DNA of 64,000 nucleotides from positions 1-64,000 of the forward strand of contig NZ_AQQR01000010.1 in NCBI RefSeq assembly GCF_002210095.1. Reading direction: 5' to 3'. The position numbers were made by a program, and so were the translations under genes. A model generated the notes under the pieces. The model saw nothing but the letters and a program-made list of their open reading frames with translations. It was not told the DNA's origin and made no database searches. Source of the stretch: Marinibacterium profundimaris (GTDB lineage Bacteria; Pseudomonadota; Alphaproteobacteria; Rhodobacterales; Rhodobacteraceae). Positions 4,443 through 57,945 of this stretch are shown here, one piece after another. Numbering within the stretch: position 1 is the stretch's first letter; every line of letters starts with the position of its first letter.

Positions 4443-4464
4443 TCCCTAGGGGATCCGCATGACA

Positions 4465-4490
4465 GGCCCCTGCGCCACGGCGCGGGGGCC
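4465..4490 (+). other. Intercistronic hairpin after cysP
   Basis: Inverted repeat with 12-nt arms (4465-4476 and 4479-4490, one G-U pair) and a very short loop, starting 22 bp after the cysP stop and 75 bp before cysT. No T-tract follows, so it probably protects the cysP mRNA end or gives partial attenuation. A small palindrome at 4442-4456 overlaps the stop region. Confidence 0.5.
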
Positions 4491-4565
4491 GCACGTTTCA
4501 GGGCCCGCCCCTCGGGGCCCGAAATCGACCGCCCGCCTGAAGACCCGACGACGCAAGGACCCCCG

Positions 4566-5408: not shown

Positions 5409-5411
5409 GCC

Positions 5412-14567: not shown

Positions 14568-14586
14568 TCCGGCCCCACGCCGTCCG

Positions 14587-39483: not shown

Positions 39484-39486
39484 GGC

Positions 39487-40440: not shown

Positions 40441-40466
40441 GGGACGTCGCCTCGAAAATTGAAAAA

Positions 40467-40496
40467 GGCCCCGCCACCCCGAAGGGCCGCGGGGCC
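40467..40496 (-). terminator. Attenuator hairpin with T-tract after binding-protein gene
   Basis: Arms GGCCCCGC (40467-40474) and GCGGGGCC (40489-40496) enclose a 14-nt loop and are followed on the minus strand by five T's. Placed between the receptor and DppB-like genes, so it should reduce read-through into the membrane and ATPase genes. Confidence 0.65.
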
Positions 40497-40505
40497 ATGT
40501 CGCGA

Positions 40506-42107: not shown

Positions 42108-42289
42108 TCAAGTCTCCCAGTTGTCCCGTTTTTTGTTGTCACGCGAACATCCGGCAGGCCGGGCCATGCCCGGACCGATGCGAACCGATCGCGTCCACCG
42201 GGGGAGTGTCACAATGCCCTCAATTCAGAGACCAGATAATTAGTGGCGTCTGGCCCGCTTCCGGCCGGAGCAGGGGGTGGACGCCCAAT

Positions 42290-42331
42290 TTTTGCCCAAA
42301 TACTTAGCATTTGCAAAGATTTAGGGCAAAA
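42290..42331. promoter_or_regulatory. Inverted repeat upstream of the second importer
   Basis: TTTTGCCC (42290-42297) and GGGCAAAA (42324-42331) are perfect inverted copies 26 bp apart, with a palindromic TTTGCAAA at 42310-42317 between them. They lie in an unusually A/T-rich patch just after the racemase-like gene and about 180 bp before the importer start. An operator is possible; the large spacer argues against a terminator. Confidence 0.35.
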
Positions 42332-42334
42332 GTG

Positions 42335-42985
42335 TCACGGATGACGGTCCGGATCGGCGCCTGCCAGGGCCTGGGCGATCTCTTGCGCCGCCGCAGGGAT
42401 CGGCGCGATCAGCGGAACGGGCGCCCGCCCCGCCAGCCGGTCGGCCGCGCGGCCCAGCGGCCCGCCCCCGATGATCGCCACCTCGGCCCCGGCCTGCGCG
42501 GCCCGGCCGGCGGCCTGCAGAAGCGCTGCGTCCAGCCGGTCGGGATCGGCCATCAGCGCCAGCGCATCGCCCTCGGCAAAGTGGCAGCCGATGTAGCGCC
42601 CAGCCCCCGCATGCGCCCGCATCAGCCGGTCGATGGGCTGTTCGAGGCCCGGCGTCGTCGTCACCACCGCAAAGCGCCGCCCGCCTGCGCCGGCGGCCCG
42701 CGCGGCGGCCGCGCCAATACCGATCACGGGGCAGGCCAGCCGCGCCGCCAGCGCGGCCCGGCCCGGATCGCCGAAGGCCGCGACCATGATCGCGTCGGCA
42801 GGCCCCGGCTCCGCCGCGCCCACCAGCCGCGCGGCCTCTTCCAGCGCCGCTCCGGTCACCAGCATCCCCGGCCCTTCGGGCGCGGTCCAGCCTTCGACCC
42901 CGTCCAGGATCCGCCCGGCGATGGCGACCATGTCGCGGGTGGTACCGGCGTTGGAATTTGGGTTCATCAGGATGATCCTCGGCAT
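42335..42985 (-). CDS. Asp/Glu (hydantoin) racemase-family protein lacking both catalytic cysteines
   Basis: 216 residues from the start at 42985 (MPRIILMNPNSNAGTT, the exact family N-terminus; a longer frame to 43081 adds an unrelated Ala/Gly/Arg-rich head). The first catalytic position, usually ACFGDPG, reads AAFGDPG at 69-75. The second, usually LGCAGM, reads IGGGPLG at 172-178. The protein has only two cysteines, in LACPV and IGCHF, both elsewhere. Two-base racemisation is therefore unlikely; it may be a lyase-like or binding relative. It is transcribed towards the second importer. Confidence 0.8.
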   Translation of the reverse strand: MPRIILMNPNSNAGTTRDMVAIAGRILDGVEGWTAPEGPGMLVTGAALEEAARLVGAAEPGPADAIMVAAFGDPGRAALAARLACPVIGIGAAAARAAGAGGRRFAVVTTTPGLEQPIDRLMRAHAGAGRYIGCHFAEGDALALMADPDRLDAALLQAAGRAAQAGAEVAIIGGGPLGRAADRLAGRAPVPLIAPIPAAAQEIAQALAGADPDRHP

Positions 42986-43140
42986 CGTCTCCGCCCTTCT
43001 TGCGCCTGCGCTGTCGCCGGCACCCTTCGCCATGGCCGCTGGCGCGGTCAAGCCGCCCGGGGCCCGCCCGCGCCGGCCCAAAGCGTTACCAGAAGGTTAA
43101 TACGCCGCCGCAACCCCTTGATATCATTAAGGTGGCCAAG

Positions 43141-44355: not shown

Positions 44356-45330
44356 ATGTCGCAAGAAGCAAAATCATGTTGCGCGGGCGACTCCCGCGGC
44401 CTTTTTGAGCTTTCGGACAAGGCCTATCTCGACGCAGCCCGTGACGTGCCGCCCGCAGGGGCCGAGGTGCGGGACAGGCTGCGCAACCGGCTGGTTGCAC
44501 TCGACGGGGGCTTTTTCGACATGGGAACGCGCAAATCGCGCTTCCCCGACGACCTCGATTCACCCCGCCGCAAGATACGGGTGTCACCGTTCCGAATCTC
44601 GCCGTTTTCCGTCAGCAACGCCGACTACGCCGCCTTTGCCAAGGCGACCGGCTACCGGACCGTTGCAGAGCGGGAAGGGTGGAGCTACGTCTTTCACCTC
44701 TTCCTCGACGACCTCTCGGCCTATCCCGATTATGCCGGGCCGGCGCCCTGGTGGCGGCGCGTCGACGGGGCCTGCTGGCATGCGCCCGAAGGGCCGGGCA
44801 GCGACACCGGCGACCGTCCCGATCATCCGGCCACCCATATCGCCTGGTACGATGCCCATGCCTATTGCCGTTGGGCCGGATTGCGCTTGCCGACGGATGC
44901 CGAATGGGAATTCGCCGCGCGCGGCGGTCTGGCCCACAAGAAATTCCCCTGGGGCAACCAGATGGCGCCAAACGGCAGGTTCGCCATGAACACCTGGCAG
45001 GGGACATTCCCGGATGTGAACACCGCCGAGGACGGATGGATCGGAACGGCCCCCGTCGACGCGTTCGAGCCGAACGGCTTCGGCCTCTACCAGATGACGG
45101 GCAATGTCTGGGAATGGGTGCAGGATTTCTATGGCCCGCGCCCCCCAAAGGGCCGTCTGCCCGAAATCGACCCCAGGGGACCGGACAGCGGAGATGCCCG
45201 GATTCAGCGCGGCGGATCCTACCTGTGCCACGTCAGCTATTGCGACCGGTACCACGTGCATTCCCGCACCCGGAACGACCCGACGAGTTCCGCCGGCCAC
45301 AGCGGGTTCCGGGTGGCAGCCGACATCTGA
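44356..45330 (+). CDS. Formylglycine-generating enzyme (SUMF1/FGE family)
   Basis: Converts the active-site cysteine of sulfatases (CxPxR) to formylglycine, using oxygen and copper. 324 residues from ATG 44356, which has an AGAGGAA site. VALDGGFFDMGT is the usual FGE opening. LRLPTDAEWEFAARGG, TGNVWEWVQDFYGP and the C-terminal GGSYLCHVSYCDRYHV follow in order. C291 and C296 in the last block match the two active-site cysteines of characterised FGEs (C336 and C341 in the human enzyme), so this is a true FGE, not a mere relative. No signal peptide, so it acts in the cytoplasm. Three FGly-type sulfatases are encoded within 14 kb. 15 of its first 50 codons end in A or T. Confidence 0.93.
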   Translation: MSQEAKSCCAGDSRGLFELSDKAYLDAARDVPPAGAEVRDRLRNRLVALDGGFFDMGTRKSRFPDDLDSPRRKIRVSPFRISPFSVSNADYAAFAKATGYRTVAEREGWSYVFHLFLDDLSAYPDYAGPAPWWRRVDGACWHAPEGPGSDTGDRPDHPATHIAWYDAHAYCRWAGLRLPTDAEWEFAARGGLAHKKFPWGNQMAPNGRFAMNTWQGTFPDVNTAEDGWIGTAPVDAFEPNGFGLYQMTGNVWEWVQDFYGPRPPKGRLPEIDPRGPDSGDARIQRGGSYLCHVSYCDRYHVHSRTRNDPTSSAGHSGFRVAADI

Positions 45331-45336
45331 AACCGC

Positions 45337-46248
45337 TTACGGGCGAAGCCCGTCGGTCAGTTTCTCCAATGTACGCATCATCTGTCGCATGGGCGCGAAA
45401 TCCTCGGACCTGGCGTGATAGGTCACGCCGGTCGGAATGCTCCATGCGAACTGATCAAGATCGACCTCGCGCAAGCCCAGTTCGGGATTGAGATCGGCCA
45501 GAGGTGTCGGCATGCAGACAAGAAACTGATGTTCGGCCACCATCTTGAACGCGATCTGCAGGGAATGTGACTCCAGCGCCAGCCGTGGCTCTGGCAGACC
45601 CTTCGACTTGAAATAGTCCCGGATCCGGATGTTCGCCTGCTGGCCGCTGAACAGGCAGAGCCACGGATAGGTCAGGGTGTCTTCGGGGCCATAGCCGTCA
45701 CGCGAAAAGATGGGATGATGTCTGGCCGCGAAAACGGCGTTGCGCTGTTCGTACAGGACCGTGGTCCGGAAATCGTCGCCGATCTCGTCCTCGGGATGTG
45801 GCGTACCTCCGGCATAGGCACGCAGGTCGCCTTTCTTGAGCAGGGGCAGCAGTTCGCCGCCGACACCCGTTGTCACCTGGACGCGCAGGTTCGGAAAACG
45901 CCGACGCAGAACGGCAAGCATGTCCGGGTAATAGAGAGAGCAGTAAACCGGCCCGCCCCCGATCCGCATCACCCCGTCCAGCCCCTTGGCCTGTGCGCCG
46001 ATTTCGACAAGGGCCGCGTTCCACGAGGCCTCTATCTCTCTGGCGCGGGCATGGAGCACCTCTCCCGCCTCGGTCATCCGCACCCCCCGCGGAAGCCGAA
46101 GCAGCAGTTCGGTGCCAAGCATCTCTTCAAGCTGACGGATGGATTTCGTCAGGGCCGGCTGACTGATGTTCAACATTCGCGCACCGCCGTGAATGGACGA
46201 GGCCTCGACCACGCCGAGGAAATGTTGAAGCCGCCAGATATCACGCAT
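45337..46248 (-). CDS. LysR-family transcriptional regulator
   Basis: 303 residues from the ATG at 46248 (MRDIWRLQHFLGVVEASS), with a GGAGGG site 6 bases before; an earlier ATG at 46272 lacks a site. The helix-turn-helix is GGARMLNISQPALTKSIRQLEEMLGTELL at about residues 24-52, then a type-2 periplasmic-binding-like effector domain from about 90. It is convergent with FGE (6-bp gap) and divergent from the first sulfatase gene, the classic LysR position, so it probably controls the sulfatase operon. Confidence 0.92.
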   Translation of the reverse strand: MRDIWRLQHFLGVVEASSIHGGARMLNISQPALTKSIRQLEEMLGTELLLRLPRGVRMTEAGEVLHARAREIEASWNAALVEIGAQAKGLDGVMRIGGGPVYCSLYYPDMLAVLRRRFPNLRVQVTTGVGGELLPLLKKGDLRAYAGGTPHPEDEIGDDFRTTVLYEQRNAVFAARHHPIFSRDGYGPEDTLTYPWLCLFSGQQANIRIRDYFKSKGLPEPRLALESHSLQIAFKMVAEHQFLVCMPTPLADLNPELGLREVDLDQFAWSIPTGVTYHARSEDFAPMRQMMRTLEKLTDGLRP

Positions 46249-46275
46249 CGCTGTCCCTCCCCAGCCAAGCAATAA

Positions 46276-46291
46276 CTCCGAGGCATCGGAG
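46276..46291. promoter_or_regulatory. LysR-type operator candidate between lysR and sulfatase genes
   Basis: Perfect inverted repeat CTCCGA-GGCA-TCGGAG flanked by A/T-rich bases (AATAA and CAATTT), 28 bp before the LysR start and 121 bp before the sulfatase start. Dyad length and place fit the recognition site of an autoregulating LysR protein. Confidence 0.5.
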
Positions 46292-46411
46292 CAATTTCCA
46301 TGTGTATTAGTCTTTCCGGGACAGGTCGGTCAATCTCCCGGCACCCGCGGGCCCGGGGTGGCCACCGCGATCCAGACTGAATCCCTGTCCTGTGACTGCC
46401 GGAGGAGCCAC

Positions 46412-47929
46412 ATGCGTACGGTCTTCGTACTCTTCGATTCTCTCAATCGCCACGCGTTGTCGTGTTACGGTGGAGAGATCGATACACCGAACTTCGACCG
46501 GCTTGCCGCCCGCACCGTACAGTTCGACCGTCACTACACCGGCAGCTTGCCGTGCATGCCGGCGCGGCGCGATCTGCAAACCGGCCGGCTTTGCTTTCCG
46601 CATCGCAGTTGGGGGCCGCTGGAACCCTTTGACAATTCGTTTGCCGGCATCCTGTCGCAGAAGGGCGTGCACACGCACCTGGTGACGGACCATTTCCACT
46701 ATTTCGAGGATGGCGGTGCCGGCTATCATACCCGCTACGATACATGGGAATTCGTCCGCGGCCAGGAATACGACCAGTGGAAGGCCAGTGTGGCCCCGCC
46801 GCTGGACGCGTATCGCGCAAGATATGCCGCGGCCAGCTATGATCCCGACAGGAAACCGCGCCGTGTGCAGCACCTCGTGAACCGGGACCACATGCAGGCC
46901 GAACAGGACCAGCCGACGCCGCGCTGCATGGCCGCGGCCCTGGAGTTCCTGGACGAGAACCGGGCAGCCGATGACTGGCTCTTGCAGCTTGAGATGTTCG
47001 ATCCGCACGAGCCGTTCCACGCTCCCGACCGGTTCCGCCGGGACGGTGACAGCGATTACACAGGCGGTGTTCTGGACTGGCCCGATTACCAGCGCGTGAC
47101 CGAAACGCCCGAGGAAGTGGCGGAGATCCGTGCCAACTATGCCGCGCTTGTCCGCATGTGCGACGCGTACCTCGGTCATTTGCTGGACTATTTCGATGCC
47201 CATGACCTTTGGGCCGACACGGCGCTTATCCTTACGACCGACCACGGTTTCCTGCTGTCCGAACATGAATGGTGGGGCAAGTGCCGCATGCCGTACTACG
47301 AAGAGGTCGTGCACATTCCGCTGTTCGTGCATCACCCCGATCATGCCGAGCAGGCCGGCACGCGCTGCAGTGCCCTGACGCAGACCGGGGACATCATGCC
47401 CACCCTGCTGGACCTCCACGGATGCCCGATCCCGGACGAGGTGACCGCACACTCCTTGATGGCGGCATTGCGGGGCGAAGCCGGGGACCGCGTAGCCGCA
47501 ACCGGGATATTCGGCGGGCCCATCGGTGTCACGGATGGTCGCTACATGATGTTCCACTATCCGCCGGACGTGCTGGGCGACGGTCTTTTCGAATATACGC
47601 TGAACCCGCAGCACATGCGCGCGCCCTTTGCCAGCGCAGAGATGCAGACAGCGGTCATGGCGCCACCCTTCGCCTTCACCAAGGGGATGCCGGTCATGAA
47701 GATCGCGGCCCTGCCCGAGGCGATGCGTGTGCCCAATCATGACGGCCAGACCTTCGAGGACCAGGGATTTGCGCTTTACGATCTTGAGGCAGACCCCGGC
47801 CAAAAGGCCCCGATCCGCGATGCCGGGGTCGAAACTCGGCTTTACACCGGTTTGATGGACATCCTGCGGGCCACCGATGCACCGGCGGAAAGCTACGGTT
47901 GGTACGGCCTTGCCGACAGGACGGTCTGA
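46412..47929 (+). CDS. Sulfatase A (FGly type, no signal peptide)
   Basis: Alkaline-phosphatase-fold sulfatase, 505 residues from ATG 46412 with a GGAGGAG site. The modification motif is GSLPCMPARR with C48; proline and arginine are in the positions required for FGE. Early metal ligands lie in LFDSLN (D9), and the later pair in TTDHGFLLSEHEWWGK. There is no signal peptide, so it should act in the cytoplasm on an imported sulfate ester. It is closely related to the sulfatase encoded at 56422-57945: runs such as HRSWGPLEPFDNS and HLVTDHFHYFEDGGA are shared. First gene of an operon with sulfatase B, TauE and TIGR02186. Substrate unknown. Confidence 0.9.
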   Translation: MRTVFVLFDSLNRHALSCYGGEIDTPNFDRLAARTVQFDRHYTGSLPCMPARRDLQTGRLCFPHRSWGPLEPFDNSFAGILSQKGVHTHLVTDHFHYFEDGGAGYHTRYDTWEFVRGQEYDQWKASVAPPLDAYRARYAAASYDPDRKPRRVQHLVNRDHMQAEQDQPTPRCMAAALEFLDENRAADDWLLQLEMFDPHEPFHAPDRFRRDGDSDYTGGVLDWPDYQRVTETPEEVAEIRANYAALVRMCDAYLGHLLDYFDAHDLWADTALILTTDHGFLLSEHEWWGKCRMPYYEEVVHIPLFVHHPDHAEQAGTRCSALTQTGDIMPTLLDLHGCPIPDEVTAHSLMAALRGEAGDRVAATGIFGGPIGVTDGRYMMFHYPPDVLGDGLFEYTLNPQHMRAPFASAEMQTAVMAPPFAFTKGMPVMKIAALPEAMRVPNHDGQTFEDQGFALYDLEADPGQKAPIRDAGVETRLYTGLMDILRATDAPAESYGWYGLADRTV

Positions 47930-47943
47930 ATAGGAGACGTGCC

Positions 47944-49482
47944 ATGGCGCACCCGAACATCATCTTCATCATGTGCGACGACCACGCGGCCAACGCGATT
48001 TCGGCCTATGGATCGGTCCTGAACCAGACACCGAACATCGACCGGCTGGCGTCCGAGGGCGCGCGACTGGATCATTGTTACGTCACGAACTCGATCTGCA
48101 CACCGTCCCGCGCGTCGATCCTGACAGGCACCTACAACCACGTGAACCTTGTGACGACGCTGGACACACATCTGGACAACCGGTTGCCCAACGTCGCCAA
48201 GCACCTGCGCATGTCGGGCTATCAGACCGCCATCTTCGGAAAATGGCATCTTGGCGAAGGCAAGGCGCATGAACCGTCGGGGTTCGACGACTGGGCCGTG
48301 GTTCCCGGCCAGGGCGAGTATTTCGACCCGATGATGATCTTTCCGGACGGCGAACGCCGCGTGCCGGGCTATGCCACGGACATCATCACCGAACAATGCG
48401 CAGACTGGATCACCTCGCGGGACAAGGACCGGCCGTTCTTCCTGATGTGTCATCACAAGGCCCCGCATCGGCCCTTCGTGCCGCATCCCCGCCACGCGGA
48501 CCTCTATCCTGACCACCTCCCCGTCCCCGAGACCTATGACGACGACTATGCAAACCGTGCCCAGGCCGCCGCGGCGGCAAAGATGCGGATCCGTCTGGAC
48601 ATGACCTACGAGGACCTCGGGCTGGTCCTGCCGGAAGGCGGGTCCGAAATCGGTGAGCTCGAGAAACCGGGATCGGAACAGCGCAAGGTGCCCGACAATC
48701 CCGAGGGCCTGGTCCTGATCGACCGCGCAACCGGCGAAAAGTACACGTTCAAGGACAAGCGCGCGCTGGACCTGTTCAAGTACCAGAGATACGTCAAACG
48801 GTATCTGCGCACCGTTGCGGCGGTAGATGAAGGTGTTGGCCGGCTGCTGGATACCCTGGATGCCGAGGGGATCGCCGAGAACACCATCGTGATCTACACC
48901 TCGGACCAGGGGTTCTTTCTGGGGGAACACGGCTGGTTCGACAAACGGTTCATGTACGAAGAAAGCCTGCAGATGCCCTTCCTCGTGCGGTACCCGGCCG
49001 AAATCGCCCCCGGAACGGTCGTGAACGAGATCGCGACCAACGTGGATTTCGCGCCGACGTTCCTGGACTATGCCGGTGCCACGACCCCCAGCTACATGCA
49101 GGGCGCCAGCCTGCGGCCGGTGCTGTCAGGCGAGGCGCCGGATGATTGGCAGGATGTGGCCTATCACCGCTACTGGATGCACAAGGACGACATCCACAAC
49201 GCCTTTGCCCATTACGGCGTGCGGTCCGACCGGTACAAGCTGATCTACTGGTACAACGAAGCGCTCGATCAGATCGGGGCCAATGAGGGCGAGGAGCCGC
49301 CCGAATGGGAGCTGTTCGATTGCCACGAAGATCCTCACGAACTTCGCAATCTGGCGGCTGATCCGGATCATGGCGAGGTCTTCATGACGATGCTTGCGCT
49401 GCTGGATCGCAAGATGGCCGAGATCGGCGACGACCCCAGGCACGACAGTGCTCAGATCAGGCGCCAGCGCGCGCCGCGTTAG
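47944..49482 (+). CDS. Sulfatase B (FGly type, no signal peptide)
   Basis: 512 residues from ATG 47944 with an AGGAG site, 14 bp after sulfatase A. It is of the classic S1 kind: N-terminal NIIFIMCDDHAANAIS with the metal-binding aspartates D12 and D13, modification motif SICTPSRAS with C52, GKWHLGE for the sulfate-binding lysine and histidine, and TSDQGFFLGEHGWFDKR. It differs from sulfatases A and C in both motif and layout and resembles glycosaminoglycan or glucosamine-type sulfatases, but no substrate can be claimed. The lack of a signal peptide again points to the cytoplasm. Confidence 0.92.
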   Translation: MAHPNIIFIMCDDHAANAISAYGSVLNQTPNIDRLASEGARLDHCYVTNSICTPSRASILTGTYNHVNLVTTLDTHLDNRLPNVAKHLRMSGYQTAIFGKWHLGEGKAHEPSGFDDWAVVPGQGEYFDPMMIFPDGERRVPGYATDIITEQCADWITSRDKDRPFFLMCHHKAPHRPFVPHPRHADLYPDHLPVPETYDDDYANRAQAAAAAKMRIRLDMTYEDLGLVLPEGGSEIGELEKPGSEQRKVPDNPEGLVLIDRATGEKYTFKDKRALDLFKYQRYVKRYLRTVAAVDEGVGRLLDTLDAEGIAENTIVIYTSDQGFFLGEHGWFDKRFMYEESLQMPFLVRYPAEIAPGTVVNEIATNVDFAPTFLDYAGATTPSYMQGASLRPVLSGEAPDDWQDVAYHRYWMHKDDIHNAFAHYGVRSDRYKLIYWYNEALDQIGANEGEEPPEWELFDCHEDPHELRNLAADPDHGEVFMTMLALLDRKMAEIGDDPRHDSAQIRRQRAPR

Positions 49483-49489
49483 GCGGGAC

Positions 49490-50428
49490 ATGCCAATCTA
49501 TCTGCCCATAGCCGAACTCACCGTAAACCTGTTTCACCTGTTGGGGCTGGGTGTTGTGGTGGGGACGATCTCGGGGCTGTTCGGGGTCGGCGGGGGGTTC
49601 CTGCTCACGCCGTTCCTGATGATCTACGGTGTGCCTTCCCCGGTCGCCGTGGCCTCGGTGACAGCGCAGGTTGTCGCCTCTTCGACCTCGGGGACGCTGG
49701 CGCACCTGGCCCGCAACACGATTGACCTGAAGCTGGGTGCCCTGCTTGTCGCCGGGGGAAGCCTGGGCGCGGTGCTGGGCGTGATCATCTTCGATGTCCT
49801 GAAAAGCCTCGGGCAGCTCGACGTGCTTCTGGCGATCGGCTACCTGACGCTTCTGGGGTCGATCGGGACACTCATGCTGGTCGAAAGCACCGGCCTGAGC
49901 TTTCGCCGCAAGCAGGCCGGCCAGACCGCCCAACCGCGGCCGCGACGGCGGTTTCCCCCGTGGATCCGCGCCCTGCCCTTTCCGGTCACGTTCCGGCGCT
50001 CCGGTCTGGTGGTTTCCGCCATCCCGGTCGTCGCGGTCGGATTGATCATCGGTGTCATCGGGGCCATCCTGGGGATCGGAGGCGGCTTCATCCTTGTGCC
50101 GGCGCTTGTCTACCTGCTGCGCGTTCCGGGCAAATTCGTCGTGGGCACATCGTTGTTGCATCTGACGGCCGTCATGGCGGTGACCTGTACGCTTCATGCC
50201 CTGCGCAACCAGTCGGTCGATCTGATCCTTGCCTTCTGCCTGATGATCGGCGGCGTGTTCGGGGCCCAGGTCGGCGCGGCCATGGGCAGGAACCTCGACG
50301 CACGGCAGCTGCGCCTTCTGTTGGCCGTGATCGTGCTCGTCGTCGCGGCGCGCTTTGCCTACGGGCTGATCGTGCTGCCCGACACCCTGTTCCAAAGCAA
50401 TCGTATCGATGCGGGGATGATCCCATGA
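49490..50428 (+). CDS. TauE/SafE-family permease (sulfite/sulfur-anion exporter)
   Basis: Membrane permease of 312 residues with about eight helices in two repeats. The glycine-rich start of each repeat is seen in GTISGLFGVGGGFLLTPFL and GVIGAILGIGGGFILVPALV. Characterised relatives export sulfite or sulfoacetate. ATG 49490 lies 7 bp after sulfatase B, and the end overlaps the next gene by 4 bp, so it is part of the sulfatase operon. Its likely job is to remove the sulfur oxyanion produced by desulfation; import of another anion cannot be excluded. Confidence 0.88.
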   Translation: MPIYLPIAELTVNLFHLLGLGVVVGTISGLFGVGGGFLLTPFLMIYGVPSPVAVASVTAQVVASSTSGTLAHLARNTIDLKLGALLVAGGSLGAVLGVIIFDVLKSLGQLDVLLAIGYLTLLGSIGTLMLVESTGLSFRRKQAGQTAQPRPRRRFPPWIRALPFPVTFRRSGLVVSAIPVVAVGLIIGVIGAILGIGGGFILVPALVYLLRVPGKFVVGTSLLHLTAVMAVTCTLHALRNQSVDLILAFCLMIGGVFGAQVGAAMGRNLDARQLRLLLAVIVLVVAARFAYGLIVLPDTLFQSNRIDAGMIP

Positions 50429-51195
50429 CCCGGTGGGCCGCCGTTCTGGCAAAGGCGCTGCTGCTGGTCGCGGCGATGACGGCTGCGCCGCATTCTCGGG
50501 GACATGCCGAGACCCTGAGCCTTGCAATCTCGGACCCTGTGATCCGCCTCAATCCGAACTATGCCGGGGCACCGATCGCCCTGTTCGGCCGTTTCGACGA
50601 GACATCGCCGGATGCCACATACGATGTTTCGGTCACCGTGGTCGGTCCGGCGCGGGCCAGGGTCGTGAACCAGGTTGGCCGGAATGCCGTGGGCATGGTG
50701 GTGACGACCCGGCGTGTCTATTATGATCGCCTGCCGACACTTGCCCACCTGATAACCAACCGCCCCCTGGACCGCTTTGCCGACGATCAGACGGCACGGC
50801 GGCTTTCGTTGCGGCCCGTCGACCTGATCGAGGACGCGCGCCTGGGGACGGACCCGGACGGCGAGGCTTTCGATCGCGCATTGCTGCGGGATCTGGTTCA
50901 GCGCAATGAATACGGAGTGGACGGACATGGCGCGACATTCATCTCGCCCGGGTTCTTTTCCGCCAGATTGCAGCTGCCCTCGTCGATCCTGTCCGGCCCC
51001 TACCTGGCCCGGGTTGTCCTGTTCCGCGACGGCGAGGTTGTCGACACTGCGGAACAGGCCTTTGTCGTCCAGGTTGCAGGGCTTGGCAGCCGACTGACCC
51101 AAATGGCGCGACGTGCGCCGCAACATTATGCGGCGCTTGTTGTCTTCGTGGCACTCGCCACGGGGTGGCTGGGGGGCGTGATCTTCAGACGCTAG
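50425..51195 (+). CDS. TIGR02186-family membrane protein (Alph_Pro_TM)
   Basis: 256 residues. An N-terminal signal or anchor (MTRWAAVLAKALLLVAAMTA) is followed by a periplasmic domain starting LSLAISDPVIRLNPNYAGAPIALFG, and one C-terminal helix AALVVFVALATGWLGGVIF. It matches the alphaproteobacterial TIGR02186/PF09608 family as I remember it, a family of unknown function that often lies beside a TauE/SafE permease. Overlap by 4 bp with the permease suggests an accessory or regulatory subunit. Its stop codon overlaps that of the convergent DUF4432 gene in a shared CTAG. Confidence 0.82.
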   Translation: MTRWAAVLAKALLLVAAMTAAPHSRGHAETLSLAISDPVIRLNPNYAGAPIALFGRFDETSPDATYDVSVTVVGPARARVVNQVGRNAVGMVVTTRRVYYDRLPTLAHLITNRPLDRFADDQTARRLSLRPVDLIEDARLGTDPDGEAFDRALLRDLVQRNEYGVDGHGATFISPGFFSARLQLPSSILSGPYLARVVLFRDGEVVDTAEQAFVVQVAGLGSRLTQMARRAPQHYAALVVFVALATGWLGGVIFRR

Positions 51196-52139
51196 GCGAA
51201 GGTCGGATCGAACGTTATCCGCACGCCGAACCTCAGCGTCTCGCCGACCTCGGATGGCGGGAGAGCACCCTGGGCCTGCAGGCTGGCCCGGCTTTGCCGT
51301 TCGTGGGTCGCGGGTTCCAGGCAGATCAATCCGACGCCCGCTGCGTGATTGCGCAGGACCTGGAAAATCGGAAGGCCCCCGCCGTCATACCCAAGTTCGA
51401 GAGATGGGCCCAACGTTGAAACAAGCCGGGCCTGGCACTGCCCCGGTCCGCTGGGCCTGGTGGTGATGCCGTCCGCATCAAGGGCAGTGCCGGTGATGTC
51501 CTGACCGGACAGGGACAGGCGGGTTCCGTCCACCGCGAAGGGGAAGCCGAGATTGACGTGATACATCGCCATCACCGGCACGCTACCCGATGCGACGCTG
51601 ACCCGGTCCGAGACACGGATTTCGCGCCCGCCCAGCGGGATGTCGATGCAACGGCGCAGTTTCAGCGCGCCCCGGCCAAGATCGAACTGCGCGCATTCCG
51701 CCTCGATCCGATACAGGCAGGTATCCCCGTCCCAGATGGCACGGGCGGACATGACGGTTGCCGGCATCGACAGCATGTTGCCATGTTGCGGATAGGCCTG
51801 CCCGTCAACTGTTTCCGGCGCGCGGATATGGTCGAAGCCGCAGGTCTGCATCAGCCCATAGAGCGCCGTGTTTCCGACGGCACGGGTCCGGTCGATGGCG
51901 CTCATCGGGCCGGTCCAGTGAAACGGAACATCACCGCACCAGACGGCGCCCAGATCGCAAAGCCGGTCGGGCAGGACATCGACCCTAAGGCCCGCGCCCG
52001 CCTCGATCCGCAGGATACGACTGCCCCGGGCCGGCCCGTCGGTCACTTCGAGATGTTCGATCCCGAACAGACGGTCGGGATCCGGGATCAGCCTTTCAAG
52101 TTCAGCGCGGGTCCAGTCCCGTCCGAAGAGCCGGGTCAT
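51192..52139 (-). CDS. DUF4432 aldose-1-epimerase-like protein
   Basis: 315 residues, galactose-mutarotase-like beta fold. GSRILRIEAGAGLRVDVLPDR and GLMQTCGFDHIRAPE, with histidines in YPQHGNM and MYHVNLGFPF, match DUF4432 proteins, which usually stand beside sugar uptake and breakdown genes. Start 52139 overlaps the transporter ATPase stop by 4 bp; a frame up to 52331 is a shadow. It is the last gene of the importer operon and is the best sign that the transported compound is a sugar or sugar conjugate. The enzymatic reaction is unproven. Confidence 0.82.
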   Translation of the reverse strand: MTRLFGRDWTRAELERLIPDPDRLFGIEHLEVTDGPARGSRILRIEAGAGLRVDVLPDRLCDLGAVWCGDVPFHWTGPMSAIDRTRAVGNTALYGLMQTCGFDHIRAPETVDGQAYPQHGNMLSMPATVMSARAIWDGDTCLYRIEAECAQFDLGRGALKLRRCIDIPLGGREIRVSDRVSVASGSVPVMAMYHVNLGFPFAVDGTRLSLSGQDITGTALDADGITTRPSGPGQCQARLVSTLGPSLELGYDGGGLPIFQVLRNHAAGVGLICLEPATHERQSRASLQAQGALPPSEVGETLRFGVRITFDPTFA

Positions 52140-53263
52140 GCGCCGGATTTTACGACAAGGTTGTCCCCGCTGGTGGCATCGAACATGTGCCAGCTGTCTT
52201 CGACCACGCGCAGTTGCACCGGGCTGCCGGGTTTCGGCAAATCGCTGGCGCCGGAGGCATCGGTTGCAACACGCACGCCGATCTCGCGCCCATCGACGTG
52301 GCCAAAGACAAAGGCCTCGTGTCCCAGCCATTCCAGCCCCGCCACCGGCAGCGACATGGTGTCGGCCCCGGCCTCTGCCGCAAGGTCGAAATGCTCGGGG
52401 CGGACGCCTATTTCGACTTTGCGGCCGGTACCGACGACCTCCCGCAATGCAGCCAGGCGCCCGGCCGACGCGGGCAGGAACAGGCTTGCCGTTCCGTTCA
52501 GCACGAACCCGCCTTCACCAACCGAAACGGTACCTTCGAAAAAGTTCATCTCGGGAGAGCCAAGGAAGCCCGCAGTAAACCGGTTCTGCGGCTGCAGGTA
52601 GAGCTCTTGCGGGGTGCCGATCTGCATGATTTCGCCGAAGTTCAGCAGGGCGATCCGGTCGGCCATGGTCATGGCTTCAACTTGGTCATGGGTCACGAAA
52701 ATCGACGTCGCGCCAAGCCTGTCATGCAAATGCCGGATCTGGTGGCGCGTTGCGGTCCGCAGCTTGGCATCCAGGTTCGACAGCGGTTCGTCAAAGAGAA
52801 ACAGCTTGGGCTTGCGCACGATGCAACGCCCCATGGCGACCCGCTGCCGCTGACCGCCGGAGAGCGCCGCGGGTTTACGATCCTCGAGCCCTTTCAGGTC
52901 GAGCATCTCGACGGCTTCGGCCACGCGCTCTTCGATCAGCTTGGGATCCTCTTTGCGCATCCGCAGGGCAAAGCTCATGTTGTCGCGCACCGTCATATGC
53001 GGGTAGAGCGCGTAGCTCTGAAAGACCATGCCCATGTCCCGGTCCGACGGGTCGACATCGGTCATGTCCTCGCCATCGACCCGGACGGTGCCGCGCGTGA
53101 TGCCTTCCAGACCGGCGATCATGCGCAGCAGCGTCGACTTTCCGGACCCGGAGGGACCCACGAGGCAGACGAACTCTCCCGACCGGATATCGAGGTCGAT
53201 TTCGGGGATGACGACGGCATCGCCATAGGCCTTGCGGACTTTTTCAAGTGTAAGTTGTGCCAT
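52136..53263 (-). CDS. Sugar ABC transporter ATP-binding protein (UgpC/MalK type)
   Basis: ATPase of a CUT1-type sugar importer, 375 residues. Walker A GPSGSGKST, Q-loop MVFQSYALYPHMTV, signature LSGGQRQRVAMGRCI, Walker B LFLFDEPLSNLDAKLR and H-loop VTHDQVEAMTMADRI are all present, followed by a C-terminal TOBE-type domain from about residue 240. The long form with TOBE is normal for MalK/UgpC. It is 11 bp from the permease gene and overlaps the DUF4432 gene by 4 bp. Confidence 0.94.
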   Translation of the reverse strand: MAQLTLEKVRKAYGDAVVIPEIDLDIRSGEFVCLVGPSGSGKSTLLRMIAGLEGITRGTVRVDGEDMTDVDPSDRDMGMVFQSYALYPHMTVRDNMSFALRMRKEDPKLIEERVAEAVEMLDLKGLEDRKPAALSGGQRQRVAMGRCIVRKPKLFLFDEPLSNLDAKLRTATRHQIRHLHDRLGATSIFVTHDQVEAMTMADRIALLNFGEIMQIGTPQELYLQPQNRFTAGFLGSPEMNFFEGTVSVGEGGFVLNGTASLFLPASAGRLAALREVVGTGRKVEIGVRPEHFDLAAEAGADTMSLPVAGLEWLGHEAFVFGHVDGREIGVRVATDASGASDLPKPGSPVQLRVVEDSWHMFDATSGDNLVVKSGA

Positions 53264-53274
53264 TATCGCGGTCC

Positions 53275-54108
53275 TTACTTGACGGCGCCGGCCATGAGGC
53301 CGCGCACGACGTATCGTTGTCCTAACAGGATGAGAATAAGCGCGGGGATCATCGACATGACCGAGGCCGCCGCCATCTCGCCATAGCGGATCTGGTGTTC
53401 CTGCGCGAAGGTGGCGATGGCCACGGGCGCTGTCATCGTGTCCTGATCGCTGAGGTTCAGCGAAATCGCGAAGTCAGACCAGGATTGGATGAAGGCCAGC
53501 GCACCCGCCGCCGCCATGCCGCCAAAGGACAAGGGAACGACGATGCGCCGGAACACCTGCCCATAGCTGCACCCGTCCATGCGCGCTGCCTGGATCAGTT
53601 CGCGGGGAATGTTCAGCAGGAAGCCCACCATCAGGAACATGGTCTGCGGCAGGGCGTGCAGGACATGGGTCAGGATCAGCGCGGTATAGGTCCCGTGCAG
53701 CCCCATGTTCGAGAACATCACGTACCACGACCCCACGAAGGTCAGCGTGGGCAGCATGTGGAACACGAGCGCCCAGCCGAGCAGCAGGGCGGTTGCCCAT
53801 TTCGGCGGTTCAAGCCGGATGATCGTGAATGCCGCCAGCGTCGCAATGACCAGCACGATGACGGTCGATACGACACCGATCATGGCGCTGTTCCAGAGGT
53901 TCATCAGGAAATCCGACTGACGCGAGAACAGCAATGTCTCATAGTTTGTCAGGATCGGCGTGGAGAACGTGTTGCCCATCAGGATGTCGATCTGGCGCTT
54001 GAACGAGTTCGACAGGATCCAGAACATCGGCCCGATGATGATGAGCGCGTAGCCCCAGGCCACCAGGTGGCCACCAAGCAGGTTCTTGCGGGTTGTGCGG
54101 CTGATCAT
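53275..54108 (-). CDS. Sugar ABC transporter permease (MalG type)
   Basis: 277 residues, six helices, starting MISRTTRKNLLGGHLVAWGY at 54108, where the start overlaps the preceding permease stop. IQAARMDGCSYGQVFRRIVVP is the EAA loop. The periplasmic SRQSDFLMNLWNSAMIG stretch is typical of the MalG/UgpE group. It pairs with the MalF-type permease in a heterodimer. Confidence 0.92.
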   Translation of the reverse strand: MISRTTRKNLLGGHLVAWGYALIIIGPMFWILSNSFKRQIDILMGNTFSTPILTNYETLLFSRQSDFLMNLWNSAMIGVVSTVIVLVIATLAAFTIIRLEPPKWATALLLGWALVFHMLPTLTFVGSWYVMFSNMGLHGTYTALILTHVLHALPQTMFLMVGFLLNIPRELIQAARMDGCSYGQVFRRIVVPLSFGGMAAAGALAFIQSWSDFAISLNLSDQDTMTAPVAIATFAQEHQIRYGEMAAASVMSMIPALILILLGQRYVVRGLMAGAVK

Positions 54109-55019
54109 GACGTCGCCTCCTGCGACTTGCTGCGGCGCTTGCGGATCCACAGGTTGACCACGACGATAAGGACAGCCACCGCAACCAGCGTAAGCAGGGA
54201 CATGGCCGACCCCACGCCAAGGCGATCCTGGGCAAAGAAGGTCCGGTAGATCGAGAAGTTGATGACTTCCGTCGACGTGCCGGGGCCCCCGCCGGTCAGC
54301 AGGTAGACCTCGTCGAAGACCTTGAAACTCAGCACGAGCCGCAGGCCCAGCGTGATGAGGATCGTCGGCACCATCAGCGGAATGGTGACGTAGCGCAGTT
54401 CCTGCCAGGGCGAGCGGACATCGAACTTCGCGGCCTCGAACACCTCCTGATCAAGGCTTTCCAGGCCGGTCAGCATCAGAAGGAACACGAAGGGGGTCCA
54501 GTGCCAGATATCCACCAGGATGACGGACGCCAGCGCAATATCGGGGTTGCCGAGAAAATCGATGGGCCCGATCCCGACATAACCCAGCAGCGTATTGACG
54601 GCCCCGAAATCCCGTCCCAGCAGCAGCCGCCACATGGCGCCGATGACGATCGGCGGCATGACGATGGGCAGCAGGAACACCGCCGTCAGCACGGCCCGTG
54701 TCACACCGGAAGCCCGCCGCGCGGCCAGCGCCATGGAAAAGCCAAAGATCATCTGGGCGGTGACGGCGCAGATCGCGAAGATGATCGTGTTGCGCACGCC
54801 CGCCCAGTAGACGGTTTCGTGCCGGAAAAGCTGATCGAAATTGGCGAACCCGATGAACTCGGAATGTGCACGGCCGTCAATCCATTCGACGTCCGAAAGG
54901 CTGAGCCCGACGAGGTTGAACACCGGGTAGATCGACAGAGCAACCAGTAGCAGCGAGGCGGGCAGAAGCGACCCGATACGCCACAGGGCATTGCGCCTGC
55001 GGGTGGAATTGGTGGCCAT
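54105..55019 (-). CDS. Sugar ABC transporter permease (MalF type)
   Basis: 304 residues from the start at 55019 (MATNSTRRRNALWRIGS). Six helices; FEAAKFDVRSPWQELRYVTIP is the EAA loop, and LLTGGGPGTSTEVINFSIYR is the diagnostic segment of MalF/UgpA permeases. An upstream in-frame extension lacks similarity. A 69-bp gap with a 13-bp-stem hairpin separates it from the receptor gene. Confidence 0.93.
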   Translation of the reverse strand: MATNSTRRRNALWRIGSLLPASLLLVALSIYPVFNLVGLSLSDVEWIDGRAHSEFIGFANFDQLFRHETVYWAGVRNTIIFAICAVTAQMIFGFSMALAARRASGVTRAVLTAVFLLPIVMPPIVIGAMWRLLLGRDFGAVNTLLGYVGIGPIDFLGNPDIALASVILVDIWHWTPFVFLLMLTGLESLDQEVFEAAKFDVRSPWQELRYVTIPLMVPTILITLGLRLVLSFKVFDEVYLLTGGGPGTSTEVINFSIYRTFFAQDRLGVGSAMSLLTLVAVAVLIVVVNLWIRKRRSKSQEATS

Positions 55020-55044
55020 GATGGAAAATCCTGGTCTAGGCGAA

Positions 55045-55074
55045 GGCAGGTGCGGCGACGGCGCCGCGCCTGCC
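55045..55074 (-). other. Intercistronic hairpin after sugar-binding-protein gene
   Basis: Long stem of 13 bp (55045-55057 with 55062-55074, one G-U pair) and a 4-nt loop. No T-tract follows, so mRNA stabilisation of the receptor cistron is the likeliest role. Confidence 0.55.
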
Positions 55075-55088
55075 ATGGGTTTAACGGA

Positions 55089-56390
55089 TCAAAGCTTGCT
55101 GGGCTCTGCCAGCGTGTAGCCCGCTTCGGTCAGGATGCGATGCATCTCGTCCGCCGATTTGTTCAGCGCCTCGGTCGGTGTCAACTCGCCGATCACGGCT
55201 TGGTTGAGAAACAGCGAGATCGCATCGCTGATCTGGCTGCCCTGGGGCAGGGGCATGTTCATCCGGCTGACGGATGCGTTCTCGGAGAAGGCCGGCAGGA
55301 AGGCGAAAGAGGGGTTGTCACCCGCCGAGTCGCTGAGGTCCTTGCGCACCGGGATGCCGCCGGACTGGACGTAGAAAAGCTGCTGCTTCTTGGACAGGAA
55401 CCAGTTCAGGAAATCCAGCGCCGCGTCCTGTTTTTCACCCGTGACGTTCTTGGGGATTGCCGCGACCCAATGCCCCGCGGCAGAGGCGTGTTCCTCCCCT
55501 TCGGCAGCAGGGATCAGCGCCGTGCCCACCTTGCCCGCAACAATCGAGCTGTTCGGATCGTTCAGCACGGGATAGGCCGCGACAACGGCGATCGCATGGG
55601 CGGCACGCCCGGTCGACATCAACTGGATCAGTTCCGCCTGCGCGATGGCGCCCGGGTTGGGCGGTCCGGCCTCGTTGCCCAGGGCGATGTAGGTCTCAAG
55701 CGCCTTGAGCCCTTCGGGCGACGCGATGGTCACGCTGTAATCACCACCCGACGGATCGGCGAAGAACGATCCCCCGTGGCTGAACAGGTAGGAGGTGAAG
55801 TTGTAAAGGATCGAGTCGCGCGATGCCCTCGGAATGAAGCCGTAGGTATTGTCATCGGCCAGCGCCTTGGCATTGGCCATCAGATCGTCCCAGGTTTCGG
55901 GCGGCGTCAGACCGGCCTCGTCATAAAGATCCGTGCGGTAATAGAGAACCTGAACGTTGCCGTTGATCGGCACGCCCAGCAGGTCGCCGTCCGCCGAAAA
56001 ACCGTTGGTGTCGAAATTCCAGCCGGTCGAGCCGCCGAAGGTCAGGACGTTTTCGTCGAGGGCGAATTCGGCATCGATTTCGGTCAGCGGCTTGAGGAAA
56101 CCGCCGGCATAGAATTCCGCCATGCCCGCCGCATTCAGCGCGACGATATCATAGCGCCCATCGTCGCCACGGACCGAGTTGCGGGTCTTCTCGAGCATCC
56201 CGCCGAATGGCGTCACGTCCAGCTCGATCGTGTTGTCGGTCTGGTCCTCGTATTCCTCGACCATGGCGACGAAGCCGTTCAGCCAGGGCGACTGGTTGAT
56301 CAAAATCCTGATTTCTTCTGCCGAAGCCGGGCCCGCGACAAGCATGGCGCTTGCGACGCTGCCGAGCAGGAATGTCTTGGTCTGTTTCAT
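55089..56390 (-). CDS. Sugar ABC transporter substrate-binding protein (SBP family 1)
   Basis: Periplasmic receptor, 433 residues. Signal peptide MKQTKTFLLGSVASAMLVAG with cleavage near GPASAEE. EIRILINQSPWLNGFVAMVEEYE starts the mature part; LGVPINGNVQVLYYRTDLYDEAGL and GRAAHAIAVVAAYPVLNDP are typical of CUT1 receptors. It is the second gene of a unit that starts with sulfatase C (31-bp gap), so it probably binds a sulfated sugar or glycoside. The binding residues for sulfate cannot be picked out by eye. Confidence 0.92.
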   Translation of the reverse strand: MKQTKTFLLGSVASAMLVAGPASAEEIRILINQSPWLNGFVAMVEEYEDQTDNTIELDVTPFGGMLEKTRNSVRGDDGRYDIVALNAAGMAEFYAGGFLKPLTEIDAEFALDENVLTFGGSTGWNFDTNGFSADGDLLGVPINGNVQVLYYRTDLYDEAGLTPPETWDDLMANAKALADDNTYGFIPRASRDSILYNFTSYLFSHGGSFFADPSGGDYSVTIASPEGLKALETYIALGNEAGPPNPGAIAQAELIQLMSTGRAAHAIAVVAAYPVLNDPNSSIVAGKVGTALIPAAEGEEHASAAGHWVAAIPKNVTGEKQDAALDFLNWFLSKKQQLFYVQSGGIPVRKDLSDSAGDNPSFAFLPAFSENASVSRMNMPLPQGSQISDAISLFLNQAVIGELTPTEALNKSADEMHRILTEAGYTLAEPSKL

Positions 56391-56421
56391 GGTTTCCTCC
56401 CTTGGATGAATTTAGCCCATG

Positions 56422-57945
56422 TCAGGCTGGCTGGCGGGTCAGGTCGAACCGCTCAAAAAGCTCGGACGGCGCGTCATGCGCCTCCAGGGACTTTACGATG
56501 CCCTCGATCAGCCTGGCGCGCGCCGTGCTGTCGTGGATCGGGTGCATTTGCTCCGGATCGGTTTTCAGGTCGAACAGCGCGGTATCAAAGGCCGACATCT
56601 GGTCCCGCGCGTTCCCGGGCGGACGCTTGAACTGCCCCATTTCCGCGGGCACCCGCAAGAGCGGCACCGATTTGGTGAAATCGAACGCTTCGGCCAGGGT
56701 CGCCCTGCCGAGCTCATCAGTACCGAACGGCTGTTTCAGATGCGACGGCATCAGCGTGTATTCGAAAAGCCCCTCTTCCTCCAGACTTGCCGGATAGAGG
56801 TACAGAGCATGGTTCCCGTCGCTGGCGCCAATTGGCCCTCCGAACTGGCCGAATACGGCCACCCTGTCCGGTTGCGCGTCACCCTCACGCAGGAGAGATC
56901 GGCCGCGCACTTCCCCGGGCACGGCAACCCCGTGCAGGTCAAGGATCGTCGGCATCAGGTCATGCGTCTGCGTGATGTCCCGGCAGCGCTGCCCGGCAAG
57001 ATCGGTGCGGCCCGGCACATGCATCATCAGCGGAATGTGCGAGATCTCTTCGAAGTAGGGCGGCGTGTTCTTGCCCCACCATTCGTGCTCTCCCAACAGG
57101 AAGCCGTGATCCGTGGTCACGATCACCGCCGTGTCGTCCCACATGTCATGCGCGTCCAGGTAGTCCATCAAGCGCCCGAAATGTGCATCGCACATTGCGA
57201 CCAGGGCATGATAGTTACGGCGGATTTCGGAGATTTCCTCTTTCGAGTATTCCGCCGGTCCATAGCGGGGCCAGTCGAGAACGGGGCCTTCGTAACCGGT
57301 GGCTTCCAGCGCGGCCTTGTAGTGTTCCGGCACGAAGAAGGGTTCGTGCGGGTCGAAACATTCGAGCTGCAGAAACCAGTCGTCCGCCGTCCGGTTCTCG
57401 TCGAGAAACTCCAGCGCGCCGCTGACACAGCGGGGGCCCGGATGGTCAGCTTCTTCGCGGATGTGGTCACGGTTGATCTGGTGCTGCAGGCGATTGCGTT
57501 CGCCCGCGCGGTTGTAGTTCTTGTCGGAATAGGATTGCTGATACCGCTCGAGGTCCGGATCGACCTTGGCTTTCCAGGTGTCGTATTCCTGGCCGCGAAC
57601 AAGGTCCCAGGTCGTGTATCTGGTATGGTAATTCGCCCCGCCGTCCTCGAAGTAGTGGAAGTGATCGGTGACAAGGTGCGAATAGACGCCGGCGGACCCC
57701 AGCAGGGCGGGCAACGAATTGTCGAAGGGTTCCAGCGGCCCCCACGAGCGATGCATGAAATTCATGCGCCCGGTGTGCAGATCCCGGCGGGCAGGCATGC
57801 AGGGCAGCGATCCGGCATGATGGTTGTCGAAGCTCAGGGCCCGTTCGGCAAATCGGTCAAAGTTGGGAGTCGCCACCGCCTTGCCGCCATACGACCCGAG
57901 CGCCGAGCGGTTCAGTGTATCCCAAAAGACCAGTATCGTACGCAA
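56422..57945 (-). CDS. Sulfatase C (FGly type, no signal peptide), paralogue of sulfatase A
   Basis: 507 residues, same design as sulfatase A: MRTILVFWDTLNRSALGSYGG at the start with D9, modification motif GSLPCMPARRDLHTGR with C49, and TTDHGFLLGEHEWWGKN. It shares long identical runs with A (for instance RSWGPLEPFDNS and DHFHYFEDGGA), so the pair arose by duplication or by separate capture of relatives. No signal peptide. It heads the importer operon in transcription order (sulfatase C, receptor, two permeases, ATPase, DUF4432), which ties desulfation directly to uptake. Confidence 0.91.
   Translation of the reverse strand: MRTILVFWDTLNRSALGSYGGKAVATPNFDRFAERALSFDNHHAGSLPCMPARRDLHTGRMNFMHRSWGPLEPFDNSLPALLGSAGVYSHLVTDHFHYFEDGGANYHTRYTTWDLVRGQEYDTWKAKVDPDLERYQQSYSDKNYNRAGERNRLQHQINRDHIREEADHPGPRCVSGALEFLDENRTADDWFLQLECFDPHEPFFVPEHYKAALEATGYEGPVLDWPRYGPAEYSKEEISEIRRNYHALVAMCDAHFGRLMDYLDAHDMWDDTAVIVTTDHGFLLGEHEWWGKNTPPYFEEISHIPLMMHVPGRTDLAGQRCRDITQTHDLMPTILDLHGVAVPGEVRGRSLLREGDAQPDRVAVFGQFGGPIGASDGNHALYLYPASLEEEGLFEYTLMPSHLKQPFGTDELGRATLAEAFDFTKSVPLLRVPAEMGQFKRPPGNARDQMSAFDTALFDLKTDPEQMHPIHDSTARARLIEGIVKSLEAHDAPSELFERFDLTRQPA

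Follow-up and report, generated by a model that had tools for sequence, protein, structure and literature searches.

A gene block in Marinibacterium profundimaris probably imports a sulfated sugar and desulfates it in the cytoplasm

The gene block at positions 44356-57945 of a 64,000-nucleotide stretch of the Marinibacterium profundimaris genome (positions 1 to 64,000 of contig NZ_AQQR01000010.1, hereafter the window) packs a sugar importer together with three sulfatases and a formylglycine-generating enzyme (FGE). Translations of the open reading frames and family searches gave 12 tightly packed genes, several of them overlapping. We consider it probable that the cassette imports a sulfated sugar and desulfates it in the cytoplasm. 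A periplasmic binding protein would capture the sulfated sugar, a mono- or short oligosaccharide, and a CUT1-type ATP-binding cassette (ABC) transporter would import it with the sulfate still attached. FGE would turn the cysteine of the sulfatases' CxPxR signature into formylglycine, and three cytoplasmic sulfatases, which we term SulA, SulB and SulC, would then take off the sulfate(s) at different positions. A DUF4432 protein may interconvert the anomers of the freed sugar and a LysR regulator may sense the substrate, while surplus sulfate (or sulfite) may exit via a TauE/SafE family permease with a TIGR02186 protein, which is the weakest step of the scheme. An initial annotation had read the locus in much the same way and counted eleven genes for a neighborhood search; all of its genes are in place, and the count is 12.

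Where desulfation would take place is indicated by the N-termini of SulA (46412..47929, plus strand, 505 residues) and SulC (56422..57945, minus strand, 507 residues, the first gene of the importer operon), which share 54-55% identity. Both begin MRT, at the first strand of the fold and eight residues ahead of the first metal ligand, D9, so that a signal peptide would have no room. Judged thus by start position against the fold, with no predictor run, neither protein has a signal peptide. Related loci were collected with two peptide patterns from GTDB contigs, which hold at least 588 confirmed SulA/SulC relatives; the best 80 gave 79 loci, a non-random sample in which contig ends truncate several loci. 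The residue aligned with Met1 is a start codon (ATG, GTG or TTG) in 79 of the 79 relatives, and in 61 of them, reading upstream in frame from there meets a stop without passing any start codon at a distance of 15 or more codons.

Another expectation is that the genes should travel together. The idea that no other genome has the gene set was rejected, since Psychromarinibacter sediminicola carries 10 of the 12 block genes, in rearranged order, and a similar cassette recurs on plasmids. In tblastn searches with the window proteins, the P. sediminicola identities were 79% for SulB, 76% for SulA, 75% for SulC, 79% for the binding protein, 81% and 88% for the MalF-like and MalG-like permeases, 75% for the ATPase, 61% for DUF4432, 73% for LysR and 69% for FGE, with no match for TauE or TIGR02186. 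The LysR and FGE genes there are convergent and 6 bases apart, as in the window. The SulA orthologue of that genome (L061:3749-5240) lies in two frames, its final 101 residues matching at 71% identity in a frame different from the rest, which indicates a frameshift or a sequencing error. The plasmid arrangement, LysR-sulfatase-binding protein-permeases-ATPase-DUF4432, is found in Roseibium (two plasmids), Chelativorans, Nitratireductor and Neorhizobium, with an FGE gene close by in the Chelativorans and Neorhizobium cases; DUF4432 is absent from the stretch seen of other CUT1-type cassettes on plasmids. Among the 79 loci, DUF4432 was detected in 10 (8 of the 19 labeled CUT1) and a SulB homologue above 60% identity in 4. 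Within the order, an intact relative (at least 35% identity, full length) is present in 8 of 291 other genomes, and three more have broken, split or partial copies; the gene is therefore patchy in the order. The cassette is real and recurrent and is borne partly on plasmids, so that the conserved neighborhood in related genomes on which the initial annotation had made its reading depend does exist, in P. sediminicola and on alphaproteobacterial plasmids.

The reciprocal question is whether the binding protein leads back to sulfatases. On plasmids the binding protein has 26 relatives (E ≤ 1e-80), and a sulfatase gene lies no more than a few kb from each of them, as determined from annotated regions, from shared coordinates and, for one record (L190), by tblastn; about 10 of the 26 records are near-copies from Sinorhizobium, and in a Deinococcus record the sulfatase falls outside the SulA/SulC clade, with an FGE gene further on. 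In a sample of the class, 3 of 336 other genomes yielded six matches at E ≤ 1e-60, three of which adjoin a SulA/SulC-type sulfatase gene and two of which have another sulfatase on the fetched stretch. Import followed by cytoplasmic desulfation, as the initial annotation had proposed, is thus supported by the recurrence of the gene set, by the sulfatases near 26 of 26 plasmid and five of six class matches, and by N-termini of SulA and SulC that are too short for a signal peptide. A separate observation concerns Sinorhizobium meliloti plasmid pSmeSM11a, on which a LysR-sulfatase-CUT1 cassette has cysD, cysN and a sulfotransferase gene a few kb away (L053, positions 2946-6575 and 12001-16827), with an IS21 element between the sulfation genes and the cassette; the plasmid is typed as conjugative.

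The importer itself has the composition of a CUT1 system. It comprises a family-1 binding protein (55089..56390, minus strand; PF01547, E 3.2e-32), a MalF-like permease (54105..55076, minus strand, although its start may be 55019), a MalG-like permease (53275..54108, minus strand) and a UgpC/MalK-type ATPase with OB and TOBE domains (52136..53263, minus strand; NF008653, 434.5 bits against a cut-off of 432). The Pfam scan covered 10 block proteins, all above the family cut-off, and the two permeases were assigned through plasmid homologues annotated as sugar or carbohydrate ABC permeases. The model of the binding protein (predicted local distance difference test score, pLDDT, 90.5) has maltose/trehalose-type binding proteins as its nearest folds, and SmoF, a sulfoquinovose binding protein, ranks eighth. 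The DUF4432 gene (51192..52139, minus strand; PF14486, E 7.6e-38) overlaps the ATPase gene by 4 bases, and its aldose-1-epimerase-like product matches PDB entry 3ty1, a hypothetical aldose 1-epimerase, at E 2.8e-6, which is consistent with a role as a mutarotase-like enzyme. The LysR gene (45337..46248, minus strand; PF00126/PF03466) is convergent with the FGE gene, 6 bases away, and divergent from sulA; 32 of the 79 related loci have a divergent LysR gene no further than 400 bp from the sulfatase, and a regulatory role for it in the cassette may be supposed.

Several observations weigh against import and cytoplasmic desulfation of a sulfated sugar. The fold neighbors of the binding protein mostly bind unsulfated sugars. 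One of the six class matches to the binding protein (L184) has no sulfatase on its 12-kb stretch, which ends at a contig end; in 20 of the 79 loci no importer gene was detected on the strand of the sulfatase within 2.5 kb; FGE is present in 5 of the 79 loci, several of these being cut by contig ends; and no LysR box common to the upstream regions of SulA and SulC was found. In addition, the block is without sugar-degrading enzymes, an absence that would suit an alternative in which the cell takes in an organosulfate to feed sulfate assimilation, the sugar being incidental. Genes for sulfur starvation are often under LysR control, which likewise favors sulfur scavenging. Yet sulfur would be wasted if, as here, the operon included a gene of an exporter family, and related cassettes do have sugar-related neighbors, with GH3 glycosidase genes beside more distant relatives, a lactonase gene and sugar-acid genes adjoining the Paracoccus cassette, and genes for MR_MLE, DHDPS-family and aldehyde dehydrogenase proteins directly after the sulfatase-importer cassette of Marinovum algicola plasmid pMaD4 (L168:21771-26104). 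The Marinovum genes look like those of a non-phosphorylative sugar-acid route, although all three enzymes scored below the NCBIfam cut-offs, and no single sugar emerges as substrate from the Marinovum and Paracoccus neighbors. Scavenging of sulfur as the main function of the block therefore seems unlikely to us.

The fold of SulC also belongs among the points on the opposing side. The AlphaFold model of residues 2-507 (mean pLDDT 89.7) has phosphonate monoester hydrolases (PMHs) as its first five fold matches, followed by sulfatases (Foldseek top hit 2w8s, template modeling score 0.62), so that the fold match does not separate a sulfatase from a PMH. It is conceivable that SulA and SulC are formylglycine-dependent phosphonate-/phosphodiester-hydrolases and that the importer takes up a phosphodiester. 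Ugp takes up glycerophosphodiesters, and the block ATPase is UgpC-like. Classical sulfatases carry a second Asp at position 10 of the metal motif, where Ser is found in 79 of the 79 relatives and Thr in SulC (D9-T10), giving D-S/T instead of D-D. PMHs are also among the best profile matches, and SulfAtlas places them in S1_0 with the same signature (PMC5066984). Nevertheless, choline sulfatase, a true sulfatase, equals RlPMH in 9 of 11 active-site residues, so that the active site does not exclude sulfatase activity, and because its metal site is comparable (Asp14, Asp296 and His297), the metal motif alone is no argument against such activity (PMC5870055). The predicted catalytic residues of SulC, D9, C49, R53, H97, H200, D279, H280 and K292, are invariant in 13 aligned sequences and match in kind the choline-sulfatase set of Asp14, fGly54, His104, His201, Asp296, His297 and Lys309, as mapped by motif rather than by residue alignment to that structure (PMC5870055). 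SulA and SulC score 130.1 and 139.2 bits against the PMH/PehA family NF045661, below its cut-off of 900, for all the similarity in fold. That SulB is a close S1_11 relative and that 14 of the 79 loci hold sulfatases of other families argue for sulfate esters, and we regard the phosphodiester alternative as quite improbable.

If SulA and SulC are sulfatases, to which kind do they belong? Both exceed the PF00884 cut-off (E 7.6e-33 and 1.1e-31), as does SulB (E 6.1e-53), and all three carry the CxPxR signature (CMPAR in SulA and SulC, CTPSR in SulB), which is found in 79 of the 79 SulA/SulC relatives, one of the two search patterns selecting for it. SulA and SulC nonetheless fall below every NCBIfam cut-off, and the nearest PDB sequence to SulA has an E value of 1.5e-24. 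Their assignment as choline sulfatases was rejected (94.7 and 99.8 bits against a TIGR03417 cut-off of 433.45). In literature searches, no title on SulA/SulC-type operons appeared in the accessible records, and no paper on intracellular or cytoplasmic sulfatases was found, subscription papers being mostly outside the reach of the search. SulA and SulC thus belong to an apparently uncharacterised sulfatase clade.

SulB and FGE are on more familiar ground. SulB (47944..49482, plus strand, 512 residues) follows SulA after 14 bases and is close to S1_11 GlcNAc-6-sulfatases in the PDB (5g2v, E 1.2e-122; 7p24, E 4.9e-107; 7lha, E 1.8e-103), and by this close similarity to characterised enzymes it is predicted to be an S1_11-related sulfatase. 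Its N-terminus reads MAHPNIIF if translation starts at 47944, and an alternative TTG lies upstream at 47899. FGE (44356..45330, plus strand, 324 residues) passes PF03781 with 248.1 bits against a cut-off of 23.3 (E 1.5e-73), has no evident signal peptide (no predictor was run) and contains a CHVSYC pair that presumably represents the active-site cysteines. The initial annotation had FGE activating all three sulfatases of the block. FGE is the sole PF03781 match in the genome, but the stricter idea that it must serve just SulA, SulB and SulC was rejected; with one FGE and 13 PF00884 matches in the genome (one with an internal stop), the enzyme need not be dedicated to the three.

Does the TauE-TIGR02186 pair belong to the system, as the initial annotation supposed? 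The TauE gene (49490..50428, plus strand) passes PF01925 with 147.8 bits (E 5.5e-43), which makes its product a predicted member of the TauE/SafE sulfur-anion exporter family. The TIGR02186/Alph_Pro_TM gene (50425..51195, plus strand; PF09608, E 3.2e-46) overlaps it by 4 bases, and because its product scores 127.8 bits against an NCBIfam cut-off of 255.25, it is a diverged member. The same genome has another pair, of which the block holds a second copy (contig C34, L163:6715-8459), 50% (TauE) and 29% (TIGR02186) identical to the block copies, whose TIGR02186 protein scores 267.9 bits compared with 158.4 for the block copy. In favor of membership are the position of the TauE gene, which follows SulB by seven bases in the same direction, its status as a diverged extra copy, and the TauE gene in a pneumococcal sulfatase operon (PMC3302838). 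Against it, and against the scheme as a whole, TauE turned up in 1 of the 79 related loci, as a 141-codon frame that follows TctA in L098, and TIGR02186 in none of them, in searches with profiles built from three sequences each, which may miss a distant TauE; moreover, plasmids gave a single TauE match at E ≤ 1e-40, from Palleronia, which adjoins TIGR02186, and the 25 kb seen around it include no annotated sulfatase. Gene position and family are thus all that makes export of the released sulfate plausible, and we put the anion export step at about even. That the pair is a chance neighbor, or serves a sulfur anion other than the sulfate released here, is a possibility falling just short of even.

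Import followed by desulfation has been suggested elsewhere, and the initial annotation's view that this may be a new pathway was not borne out, since the scheme had already been proposed for Streptococcus pneumoniae (PMC3302838), import had been shown and cytoplasmic desulfation deduced for Streptobacillus (PMC5430744), and choline sulfate is a further case. In the Streptobacillus moniliformis glycosaminoglycan cluster (Smon0120-0127), an ABC importer of sulfated chondroitin disaccharides has been characterised, with structures of its binding protein; the disaccharides are imported whole, and desulfation inside is deduced by the authors, the sulfatase being predicted as cytoplasmic by PSORT-B (PMC5430744, PMC5717064). 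That cluster differs in belonging to a member of the Fusobacterium group and in acting with a lyase and UGL on glycosaminoglycans, and LysR, DUF4432 and TauE are not mentioned in the available portions of these papers. The pneumococcal operon SPH1922-1929 resembles the block in its importer, sulfatase, sulfatase-modifying enzyme and TauE exporter, and its proposed role, published in 2012, is uptake of sulfated sugars with removal and export of the sulfur anion (PMC3302838), but its importer is a phosphotransferase system and its regulator is of the ROK type, and the island gave no sulfatase activity with 4-methylumbelliferyl sulfate, the one test substrate (PMC3283741).

Another example lies in the same genome. 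Contig C45 (L159:5021-12425) carries a choline-O-sulfate cassette (TIGR03417, 890 bits; TIGR03414, 449 bits; betA, 816 bits), in which, as is proposed for the block, uptake (here by a choline ABC transporter) precedes the action of a CxPxR sulfatase; the choline sulfatase is cytoplasmic, and a choline-binding protein and BetA complete the cassette. The sulfatase family and the transporter class are different from those of the block. Because its motif is CAPGR and the only FGE of the genome lies in the block, the C45 choline sulfatase would depend on the block's FGE. SmoF (PDB 7ofy, 7yzs) is likewise a CUT1-type binder of a sulfur-bearing sugar, but its ligand is a sulfonate (C-S) rather than a sulfate ester, and to our knowledge its pathway has no sulfatase. 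The cassette of the block probably works like the known import-then-desulfate systems. The concept itself is not new; what appears to be new is the uncharacterised sulfatase clade, the LysR/DUF4432 set and the swapping of importers.

How far does the association with importers extend across the clade? In 59 of the 79 loci the sulfatase has an importer gene on its own strand no more than 2.5 kb away, compared with 842 of 3956 (21%) random outer-flank intervals. Labels were assigned by BLAST against an assembled set of 89 proteins, 'none' meaning none detected, and were 35 for the tripartite tricarboxylate importer (TTT), 19 for CUT1, 4 for the tripartite ATP-independent periplasmic (TRAP) type and 1 for Opp. 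The TctA permease is among the nearest matches in 18 of the 35 TTT loci and not in 17, some of them cut by contig ends. The labels of three TRAP loci (L107, L120 and L123), whose identity to a DctM is about 24%, and of the Opp locus (L117, a 23% match) are weak. Solid TRAP cases are L116, in which DctP/Q/M genes precede the sulfatase, and L035, which was counted as 'none' even though DctM/DctP genes adjoin; for L037 and L038, whose sulfatases are more distant relatives, adjoining Opp genes were confirmed. In these last two loci (L037:5319-14096 and L038:6978-16377), a GH3 glycosidase gene accompanies the Opp-like transporter genes, a pairing that suggests import of sulfated oligosaccharides.

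Two quick trees, with support from the Shimodaira-Hasegawa-like approximate likelihood ratio test (SH-aLRT) only, had 105 rows and then 110, the second omitting the long branches L174 and L041 and adding seven rows; 26 added rows were labeled from annotation or maps. On the 105-row tree the six importer labels require 25 changes against a shuffled mean of 59.5, with none of 200 shuffles as low, and on the 110-row tree 25 against 61.6. At least 10 changes are needed when TTT and TctC-only are merged and unlabeled rows omitted, and 6 for CUT1 and TTT rows alone. Importer type follows the sulfatase tree but has changed repeatedly. SulC falls in a 10-row set that is entirely CUT1 (SH-aLRT 98) and SulA in a set of 11 rows, of which 8 are TTT and 3 have no importer (SH-aLRT 99), both on the 105-row tree; on the larger tree the SulA set has 14 rows, 9 TTT and 5 none (SH-aLRT 98).

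A third paralogue in the same genome (contig C60, L032:8264-14029), 53% identical to SulC, heads a LysR-sulfatase-TctC-TctB-TctA operon. In Pseudorhizobium tarimense (L063), a gene nearer to SulA (59%) than to SulC (54%) lies with TctCBA directly before a CUT1-DUF4432-FGE cassette, which is headed by a SulC-lineage sulfatase, and a SulB homologue is found upstream. We infer that the window merges a TTT-linked lineage (SulA) with a CUT1-linked lineage (SulC) and that SulB-TauE-TIGR02186 here occupy the slot that in other loci belongs to Tct genes. In another genome, a SulA/SulC-type gene broken by stops adjoins apparent TctABC genes (L040:8167-12819), as judged by eye from translations.

Third-position guanine-cytosine content is 0.77-0.85 in the 8 block genes that passed a coding filter, compared with 0.85-0.89 in the two genes on either side, which is compatible with acquisition but no proof of it. 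The window belongs to a 148-kb contig of a 6.15-Mb genome. To the left of the block (36568-43081), Opp-type transporter genes adjoin a possible Asp/Glu racemase-family gene, judged from translations only.

A wider picture may be drawn, which we offer tentatively and at somewhat less than an even chance. The SulA/SulC clade would be a general, cytoplasmic desulfating head that has combined in evolution with four or more classes of importer (CUT1 ABC, TTT, TRAP and Opp), each bringing in its own class of organosulfate, with sulfated acids among those taken up by TTT. Small organosulfates would then have a route around periplasmic sulfatases that is widespread in Proteobacteria and often carried on plasmids, and the window would be a case in which a CUT1-type SulC and a TTT-type SulA have come under one importer. 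Sulfated sugars make up a large share of marine algal carbon, and most described degraders desulfate them outside the cytoplasm. With a recurring cassette that imports first, the ligands of the binding proteins would reveal which small organosulfates are available to these bacteria, and perhaps a rule would follow by which the substrate class of a sulfatase is predicted from its importer.

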